Below are positions 30,172 to 34,284 of a stretch of 64,000 nt of DNA, piece by piece. The stretch spans positions 1-64,000 of the forward strand of contig CALDVW010000010.1 of the NCBI GenBank assembly GCA_937924405.1, in the 5' to 3' direction. The DNA comes from an uncultured Lysobacterales bacterium. Lineage in GTDB: Bacteria; Pseudomonadota; Gammaproteobacteria; Xanthomonadales; SZUA-36. The position numbers were made by a program, and so were the translations under genes. Every line of letters starts with the position of its first letter. Within the stretch, counting starts at the first letter, position 1. The notes below the pieces were generated by a model, which saw only the letters and a program-made list of their open reading frames with translations, searched no databases and was not told where the DNA came from.

Positions 30172-30189
30172 TGACCTATTTAAAGGTCA
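30172..30189. terminator. Small hairpin between convergent genes
   Basis: TGACCT and AGGTCA form a 6-bp stem around the AT-rich loop ATTTAA. It lies over the stop of the 595-aa lipoprotein gene, 15 bases after hda. There is no T tract and few GC pairs, so termination is doubtful. Confidence 0.25.
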
Positions 30190-31963
30190 TCTGATTGTCG
30201 GCGACAAAGCCATCGCTGGTAAATCGCAATATGGTGTGGCTGCGATCCGCCATTTCACTGAAGCTTTTCAACGCCGCTTCTTGAATCTCCCTGGCAGCCT
30301 GCGAGTGCGCATCGTGGTCGCCCTTGTGCTGATCCATTCCGTCCTGGTGATGGTCGCCCGATTTTCCGGTGTAATCAAGGTAGGCTGCCACGTCATAGCT
30401 GGCCGAAAGGAAAGTGCCATCAGGTCCGGATTTTTGATCCAGGTATGGCAGTAAACCCGATTCTTCACCTTCACCCACCGCCAGTCCAATCGCGTTATCC
30501 GATAAGGCAGCGAAGGCCACCATCCCCGGTACGGGAACCAGGGATTCCGGCAATCGGACCGGAGGGTCGCCCGGGGTTATCGAAAGCGTTGACAGGTCTG
30601 GAATGAACATCTGTGCCATTCCGATGAACATTTCCGGTTGTTCAACGTGAACCGCGAGGTGTCCCCTTGCGTTTTGGGGAATGGAATCGTGGCCCACCAT
30701 GATTTCGCTCAGCCGGATTCTCAAACCACGGAAATTGTTAACGAACGGGGGCATCGGCTGATTGAGCTGGGTCAGGCTTTCAGAGGCACTGCTATTGAGA
30801 TCGGCCAGGTGCTCACATTGGTACGGGTCATCCACGATCGCAGTCACTTTTTCCCGCAGGAAGTCGCGCACCGGTCCGAATTTCATACCGAAAGCAAATT
30901 CAAGGATTCGGTCCGAATGAGCGTCGACCATCGGGATTTTCGAAACCAGGTCCATCAACTGGCCGGCGAGGCTCGCGGGAGTCTCCACCCGGTACTGAAC
31001 CGAAACTGCTGAAGTGGTCAGTTCTGTCGTTCCCATGGTGATACGCGGCGCATGATCGATGATTTCATGAATTTCCGAGACGCACTCCTGCGTGAGTGAC
31101 GCAGGATCAAATTCACCCGATGAAGCCAGCGCCCGGCCAGCTACGGTTTCTGCTTGCAGAAACTGGTCCGCCAGCTTCCGGATATCGAGGATGCCTGAGC
31201 CATGGGGTGTGTATTCATGAGTCCGGTTCAACTCGGCCAACCGGGCCTGTGCATCACTGTCTACAGGCATCTGCAAACCAAGAAAGGCTGGCAGGAGTTC
31301 TGACTCAGCCATTGCCGGAAAGAGGCTTATGGCCAGGTGGTCATCGAGTATGGAAAGATAAAGGCTGATGGGTGATTCGTCGACGCCTTCATCGCCGACA
31401 CGCCAGAAAGAAACCCCCTGAAAATTCTGTTCCGGGGCCTCGATACCGGCATTGTTCAGGACGCGTTCAATGGTAGCGCGCAGGACTTCGGAATCTGAAA
31501 GGCCCAGGCGGACGACAGGGAAAGCACCCATGCCGTAAACAACCTTGTTTGATCGCAGATCGAATCCAAGGCTTTCCAGCCCGGGTCTGCTCAGCTTGCC
31601 GTCCAACTCCACCAGCAGGGCGTGCGCCAGCGCCAAGCCCATTTCGTCGTGATATGAAGCTTCAATTGCTTCTTCACTGCCTTGCGGTAGCGCGGCAGTG
31701 GTTTCCATCTCCGCGCGCGCTATGCTCAACCGGTTTTGCATGGAATCCAGAACCGGCTGCAGGCGTATCAGGAACGTATCGATAACTTCCTCCGGTACCG
31801 GCTCCAGGTTGGCCAGCAGATAGGGAGTGTCGGCCGGCACATGAAGCAGCAGGTCATTACTCGGGCCGCTGTCAGTAACGACCTGTTGCTCGTCGCTCTT
31901 AGTGCAGGCGCCAAGTAAAATCATCGAAAGGATGGCGAAAGTGGCCAGGCGGATTTTGGTCAT
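30176..31963 (-). CDS. Uncharacterised lipoprotein with His/Asp-rich C-terminal segment
   Basis: A 595-aa protein I do not recognise. A signal peptide ends in the lipobox LGAC (Cys20), and the next residues TKS favour the outer membrane. The mature part starts with LLLHVPADTPYLLANLEPVP, a pattern loosely like DUF3352-type extracellular proteins. At ~550 a short His/Asp-rich run (DHHQDGMDQHKGDHDAHSQ) could bind metal. Two Cys remain (~297 and ~386). It is a monocistronic gene convergent with hda, with a clear promoter and operator-like palindrome upstream. No neighbour suggests its job. Confidence 0.75.
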   Translation of the reverse strand: MTKIRLATFAILSMILLGACTKSDEQQVVTDSGPSNDLLLHVPADTPYLLANLEPVPEEVIDTFLIRLQPVLDSMQNRLSIARAEMETTAALPQGSEEAIEASYHDEMGLALAHALLVELDGKLSRPGLESLGFDLRSNKVVYGMGAFPVVRLGLSDSEVLRATIERVLNNAGIEAPEQNFQGVSFWRVGDEGVDESPISLYLSILDDHLAISLFPAMAESELLPAFLGLQMPVDSDAQARLAELNRTHEYTPHGSGILDIRKLADQFLQAETVAGRALASSGEFDPASLTQECVSEIHEIIDHAPRITMGTTELTTSAVSVQYRVETPASLAGQLMDLVSKIPMVDAHSDRILEFAFGMKFGPVRDFLREKVTAIVDDPYQCEHLADLNSSASESLTQLNQPMPPFVNNFRGLRIRLSEIMVGHDSIPQNARGHLAVHVEQPEMFIGMAQMFIPDLSTLSITPGDPPVRLPESLVPVPGMVAFAALSDNAIGLAVGEGEESGLLPYLDQKSGPDGTFLSASYDVAAYLDYTGKSGDHHQDGMDQHKGDHDAHSQAAREIQEAALKSFSEMADRSHTILRFTSDGFVADNQMTFK

Positions 31964-31991
31964 ATCAATTCTCTTGTGTCAGCTTGTGTAG

Positions 31992-32013
31992 GTGTTATAC
32001 CACAGTATAACAC
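31992..32013 (-). promoter_or_regulatory. Perfect 9+9 palindrome over the -10 box of the lipoprotein gene
   Basis: GTGTTATAC, four bases, then GTATAACAC: a perfect 9-bp inverted repeat. On the minus strand it covers the -10 hexamer TATAAC (31994-31999). A -35-like TTGCAT lies 17 bases upstream (32017-32022). The lipoprotein ATG is ~24 bases past the predicted start site. This geometry is that of a dimeric repressor operator. It is AT rich and has no T tract, so it is not a terminator. I cannot name the regulator. Confidence 0.65.
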
Positions 32014-32093
32014 TATATGCAATTTTCCGACTGTCGTGTCGGGCCAGGAAGGTGGTTTTTATTCTCCCGCGAAGGGAATGACGCCATTTCAAG

Positions 32094-33739
<1,646 letters not shown>

Positions 33740-33837: not shown

Positions 33838-34284
33838 ATGTTGAGAATATCAAAATTGACCGACTATGCCATTCTGCTCATGGTGGAGCTGACCCGTGAC
33901 AGCGAAATGCTGAGCGCTCATGCACTGGCGGAGCGAATCCATGTCGAAATTCCGACCGCCAGCAAAGTGCTCAAATTGCTGGCCGGGGATGGCTTGCTTG
34001 AGTCCTATCGGGGAGCGAGTGGGGGCTACCGCGTGAGTCGGCAGGCGGGCGATATCAGCGTGGCGGAAGTGATAGCCGCAATCGAAGGGCCGATCGCAAT
34101 GACTGAATGCAGTGTGGAAGAGGGCCTCTGCAGTCAGGAAGACAGCTGTGAACTGCGCAGCAACTGGCAGCGGATCAGTCTGGCGGTAGCCGGGGCGCTG
34201 CAGGAAGTAAGCCTGGCTGAAATGTCCACTCCGATGACAAAAAACGATAATCCCCTGCAAATAACCACCTTGAGCGTCAGTTGA
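33838..34284 (+). CDS. Rrf2-family Fe-S regulator of the suf operon
   Basis: A 148-aa winged-helix regulator ([41 protein letters not shown]). Three cysteines at 91, 98 and 104 match the cluster-binding Cys of IscR, so it should bind a 2Fe-2S cluster. Its location at the head of sufBCDS matches the SUF assembly regulators of Xanthomonas-like bacteria rather than IscR of the isc operon. It likely represses suf and itself when iron-sulfur supply is adequate. Confidence 0.88.

Follow-up and report, generated by a model that had tools for sequence, protein, structure and literature searches.

The palindrome lies over the putative promoter of a lipoprotein gene

The window analysed here is the whole stretch of 64,000 nucleotides taken from one contig of an uncultured Lysobacterales bacterium. 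Between a nucleotidyltransferase gene (32094-32759) and a lipoprotein-like ORF (30176-31963), both on the minus strand, it carries a perfect 9+4+9 inverted repeat, GTGTTATACCACAGTATAACAC, at 31992-32013, made up of the arm GTGTTATAC, the centre CACA and the arm GTATAACAC; the 22-bp palindrome described in an earlier note on this DNA is thus borne out by the sequence. The features of the locus are the following.

30176-31963, minus strand: putative target gene, encoding a putative lipoprotein of 595 aa (lipobox LGAC, Cys20; no Pfam or NCBIfam family)
31983-31990, minus strand: conserved stretch directly 3′ of the operator, recognized because the alignment columns that follow the site are richer in information
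31991-32014, plus strand: candidate operator of 24 bp, GGTGTTATACCACAGTATAACACT, of the form RGTG-N16-CACY (match to the weight matrix and to the combined model R2)
31992-32013, no strand: perfect 9+4+9 palindrome (sequence and pattern search)
31994-31999, minus strand: −10-like TATAAC within the operator, kept over 32 aligned promoters and separated by 17 bp from the −35
32017-32022, minus strand: −35-like TTGCAT (from the sequence; its TTG block is kept at the same distance in relatives)
32094-32759, minus strand: upstream nucleotidyltransferase gene (PF00483), in the same direction as the lipoprotein gene

Because it lies next to an APH-family kinase gene, we take the 32094-32759 gene to be MurU-like. 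TTGCAT and TATAAC, read on the minus strand and separated by 17 bp, form a plausible σ70-like promoter for the lipoprotein gene, and from this promoter the +1 is estimated to be near 31987, 24 bp 5′ of the ATG at 31963. The repeat therefore overlies the promoter, as had been claimed before; as for its being centred on the −10, this element is indeed within the repeat, in the promoter-proximal half, but the repeat centre falls in the −35/−10 spacer. The promoter was absent from the list of a 9-of-12 promoter scan, and its support comes from the −35/−10 spacing conserved in relatives. The candidate operator reads on the plus strand, and is thus reversed relative to the lipoprotein gene. Directly 3′ of it, the stretch 31983-31990 is tacacaag in the window and TATACATA or TTTACACA in relatives; this TATACATA-like stretch may mark the region where transcription starts or serve as an additional half-site.

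A second site precedes a GntR regulator operon in the same genome

When the genome to which the window belongs (G000; 2.84 Mb, 129 contigs, 90% complete) was searched with the repeat pattern, the sole match at up to 3 mismatches besides the palindrome itself was found on another contig, at C47:20217-20238. This is not a random hit in coding DNA, since the site precedes a row of genes for an 85-aa ORF, a 124-aa GntR protein, an ABC ATPase and a permease-like protein. The GntR protein has an N-terminal GntR winged helix-turn-helix (PF00392, 48 bits against a cut-off of 27) that ends at residue 74 and leaves a short C-terminal part of about 50 aa, and its closest solved relative is 3tqn_A (E 1.8e-35). 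The ABC ATPase gene (PF00005) overlaps the stop of the regulator gene and is followed by the permease-like gene, whose product matches PF13346 at 18.7 bits, below the 25-bit cut-off. A C-terminal domain reduced to about 50 aa and an ABC transporter operon are the traits given for the YtrA subfamily in the accessible text of PMC4494728, and the C47 regulator is, by its sequence, a member of this subfamily of GntR regulators. The operator sequence is present before the regulator's own operon, as would suit autoregulation. The earlier note was right that no regulator is adjacent to the palindrome, the candidate YtrA regulator being encoded on contig C47. An Rrf2-family gene at 33838-34284 had been considered as the regulator and was set aside because the palindrome motif is that of YtrA operons.

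The operator motif is that of YtrA operons

In the YtrA operons of other genomes the site reads GGTGTTATACTTCACTACAACACC or near variants, and before the lipoprotein gene of relatives it reads AGTGTTGTACTGTGGTATAACACC or close forms. With a weight matrix made from 14 distinct YtrA-operon sites, all from other genomes, the palindrome scored 24.6 bits (plus strand) and ranked first when both strands of the window were scored, with 10.0 bits for the runner-up; none of 19.8 million first-order Markov positions reached 24 bits. The covariance model R1, derived from these same YtrA-operon sites alone, gave the window site 10 bits (E 0.089), and a whole-genome search of G000 with R1 did not list it. 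The combined model R2, derived from 14 YtrA-operon and 15 lipoprotein-promoter sites, gave it an E of 1.5e-4 in the whole-genome search, a value that is partly circular since the 15 lipoprotein-promoter sites include the window's own. The high rank of the window site thus comes only from the matrix and R2, not from R1.

The motif GGTG-N16-CACC has been assigned to a YtrA-like regulator of Xanthomonas citri (Zhou et al. 2017, as cited in an excerpt of PMC6746942). The window site, GGTG-N16-CACT, agrees with it in 7 of the 8 outer bases and exactly in spacing (outer GTG-N16-CAC), the last base being T instead of C; the regulators of both systems are assigned to the YtrA subfamily. The full GGTG-N16-CACC form is found before the same lipoprotein gene in several relatives (for example L013, L017 and L024). 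The earlier statement that no known operator fits exactly has to be corrected to a near-exact fit of this one, save for that last base.

The site is kept before the lipoprotein gene

Within the taxonomic family of the window, the lipoprotein gene is present in 36 of 39 genomes. Leaving out G008 and G053, in which the 5′ end of the gene is missing from the contig, 34 genomes were testable (in G015 the lipoprotein is split over two contigs), and the 24-bp site was detected with R2 before the orthologous gene in 33 of them, so that the upstream region in close relatives, to which the earlier note had pointed, does keep the palindrome. Among the family genomes first met after R2 was built, the site is present in 10 of the 11 that were testable, and five further contigs (L141, L143, L146, L148 and L149) all have it before the gene. 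In G042, the regulator operon and the lipoprotein gene are present and the site before the latter is absent. Outside the family, a homologue occurs in 13 of the 41 genomes, with the site in four (G028, G032, G033 and G039) and none in nine; a lipoprotein homologue is found in 37 of the 41 genomes overall. The link between YtrA site and lipoprotein is, judged by these counts, not universal. The relatives are largely labelled Lysobacterales or Xanthomonadales, and when 200 genomes of the order were searched with R2 at a threshold of E 0.1, one or more sites turned up in 153 of them, irrespective of the downstream gene.

A footprint over 32 lipoprotein promoters gave 1.58 bits per column within the site, versus 0.18 upstream and 0.25 downstream (60-bp flanks); as the rows were anchored on the best matrix match, the conservation within the site partly reflects this way of selecting them, which does not affect the flanks or the −35 block. 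A conserved TTG block lies 17 bp before TATAAC over the 32 promoters. The operator is reversed with respect to the lipoprotein gene in 29 of these and forward in the other three, and 38 of 39 YtrA operons carry it in the forward direction; its occurrence in either orientation at the lipoprotein gene is more in keeping with a dimeric regulator than with a sigma factor. In other relatives the upstream nucleotidyltransferase gene is replaced by a PntB-like gene and the operator persists, staying with its own gene even where a different neighbour lies upstream. In its overall behaviour the site resembles the operator of a dimeric regulator more than it does a terminator or the promoter of a sigma factor.

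YtrA operons and regulon size in relatives

Orthologues of the YtrA protein (E 3.9e-36 or better) were found in 40 of the 41 genomes; the sole genome without a close one, G029, is also without an R2 site (a single case). We took 44 YtrA loci, of which 39 were located by a peptide signature (L053 and L111 being one gene), and scored the best matrix match in up to 900 bp as the YtrA-operon site. An RGTG-N16-CACY site was present 352-519 bp before the helix-turn-helix codons in all 39 located loci, L050, L051 and L058 each having it before the YtrA gene. The other five loci (L066, L068, L069, L117 and L119) were left out because the signature missed the gene; L117 and L119 have a site near the expected place, L066 also has one, and L068 and L069 are R2 site loci themselves.

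Several side observations concern these operons. They open with a fast-evolving ORF of 74-96 aa (L036:7935-8192 and relatives), whose product has a hydrophobic stretch at the N-terminus and often ends in a sequence resembling SLLLFGRG. G005 has two YtrA operons, L111 on contig C80 and L112 on C87, each with the same operator. In L117, L119 and L129, a glutathione peroxidase gene (PF00255 for the former two, similar sequence for L129) is divergent from the YtrA operon promoter.

In some relatives a third site is found before an HlyD_D23-type RND adaptor gene (L099, L100, L104, L106, L108, L109, L161 and L162; Pfam was run on L099, L104, L106 and L161, and the others were assigned by similar sequence), in several cases within the promoter divergent from a small cytochrome c gene. 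R2 gave exactly two sites in G000, the window palindrome and the C47 site, and listed none at an RND adaptor gene; the nearest adaptor homologue there is 30% identical, and the lack of a close adaptor orthologue is consistent with the missing third site. By these searches the regulon of G000 appears to comprise two sites. The dispersed regulon supposed in the earlier note therefore holds in that the site recurs elsewhere in the genome, but not in the sense of a large set.

Proposed regulation of the lipoprotein gene and its alternatives

The promoter-operator anatomy, its conservation, the identity of the motif with that of the YtrA operons and the presence of the regulator are seen directly. 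Taken with them, the palindrome is in all likelihood the operator of the C47-encoded YtrA-subfamily GntR regulator, which heads an ABC exporter operon, and it would link the lipoprotein to this operon. We infer binding, repression, a releasing signal and a functional partnership of lipoprotein and exporter as follows. A dimer of the 124-aa regulator would contact the outer GTG and CAC half-sites, about two helical turns apart. In the lipoprotein promoter, the −10 and the adjoining end of the spacer would thereby be covered and RNA polymerase excluded; YtrA is thus probably a repressor of the lipoprotein gene that acts by occlusion of the −10 region. The signal that releases the regulator might, by analogy, be stress to the envelope or from antibiotics. 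With an identical type of operator at the head of its own operon, the regulator would also control itself, and release would switch on exporter and lipoprotein together.

The sign of this regulation is the point on which the same regulator allows another reading, namely that binding at the −10 and spacer activates the lipoprotein promoter. HpaR1 of Xanthomonas campestris, which is of the YtrA subfamily and binds over the promoter core as we propose for the window site, protects −21 to +10 of gumB and raises its transcription (PMC4730234, in excerpt); from the estimated +1, the window operator would extend from about −27 to −4. On the other hand, the YtrA subfamily is described, in the excerpt of PMC6746942, as generally repressing its own ABC operon, and the lipoprotein promoter, whose TTG −35 and good −10 are 17 bp apart, has no obvious need of an activator. 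We consider activation rather unlikely on this balance; repression is only the likelier mode, given that HpaR1 activates from a similar position. The repressor geometry invoked in the earlier note stands to the extent that a regulator site lies over the promoter, with repression as the likelier sign.

A different regulator of similar specificity, for example another GntR protein, would be a still less probable occupant of the site. G000 has three GntR-domain matches including the C47 regulator, and the site centre does differ, being mostly CACA in lipoprotein promoters versus mostly TTCA in YtrA operons; the outer operator bases, however, are identical in the two kinds of promoter, and the other two GntR frames, of 273 and 640 aa, differ from YtrA in size and reach only 1e-5 to 1e-7 against the YtrA query. 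That the palindrome arose by chance, or is the terminator hairpin of the upstream gene, has hardly any probability left. Size alone is unremarkable and gives no evidence, since the real window has a single perfect repeat with arms of at least 9 and a gap of 0-10, fewer than the average of 2.75 over 12 first-order Markov sequences. In a post hoc test that allowed up to 3 mismatches, none of 100 shuffles contained the exact repeat pattern, which the window has once. What goes beyond chance is, at the sequence level, the specific match to the YtrA-operon motif together with the cross-genome conservation, which contradicts a chance origin. The terminator reading was rejected: the A+T-rich arms have no T-run, no terminator-like structure was found in 31900-32160, and it is further weakened as the palindrome is kept even where the upstream gene differs. 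An operator of the C47 YtrA regulator accordingly remains the preferred reading of the palindrome.

Comparison with known YtrA-type systems

The half-site sequence of the Bacillus subtilis YtrA differs from that of the window operator, and the two organisms belong to different phyla. That regulator is likewise a small GntR protein, with inverted repeats 13 bp apart (PMC4730234, in excerpt), and is said to respond to cell-wall antibiotics (excerpt of PMC6746942). HpaR1 differs from the case proposed here in that its gumB inverted repeats are 1 bp apart, in its activation of that promoter and in being described as a global regulator (same excerpt of PMC4730234). YtrASa of Sulfolobus acidocaldarius also has a very small regulon, consisting of its own operon and one separate membrane-protein locus, but it is archaeal and has a 14-bp core motif (PMC6746942, in excerpt). 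A lipoprotein as a named YtrA target was not found in the literature searched, and the accessible main text of PMC4494728 does not contain the word 'lipoprotein'. What would be new is thus the lipoprotein gene as a target, which is well supported by comparative sequence evidence; the kind of regulator is known.

The lipoprotein

Through the predicted link, what was an orphan palindrome becomes a regulatory connection, open to experiment, between a lipoprotein and a small YtrA regulator. It would place the lipoprotein of the 36 family genomes under a regulator whose subfamily elsewhere answers cell-wall antibiotics and controls exporters, and it offers a first lead on the role of this protein. 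The sequence has the lipobox LLGAC at residues 16-20, with Cys20 invariant in 15 orthologues. Neither Pfam nor NCBIfam gave a family for it, none was reliable over 25 members either, and no convincing sequence relative was found in the PDB.

The AlphaFold model has a pLDDT of 85.8, and the full model had no Foldseek match in the PDB at E 0.001 or better. With VIA-align, its best match was TP0453, which we take to be a Treponema lipoprotein (Z 8.5, within the tool's ambiguous range; rmsd 5.6 over 216 residues). The middle part alone (pLDDT 90.5) likewise had no Foldseek match at 0.001, and in VIA-align it was nearest to MucB (Z 5.7, rmsd 4.1, 85 residues), with RseB at Z 5.4 (rmsd 3.8, 84 residues). 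The model-based likenesses to TP0453 and MucB/RseB are leads only. A wider and rather doubtful idea is that the ABC exporter and this undescribed, multi-domain envelope lipoprotein are paired in a YtrA regulon that is widespread among bacteria related to the Xanthomonadales, in which the lipoprotein might act as exporter partner or sensor in an envelope-stress response.

In G009, the lipoprotein gene (L016, G009:C16:54861-56629) is broken into two frames, of which the second contains an internal TGA; this reflects either a frameshift or an assembly error.
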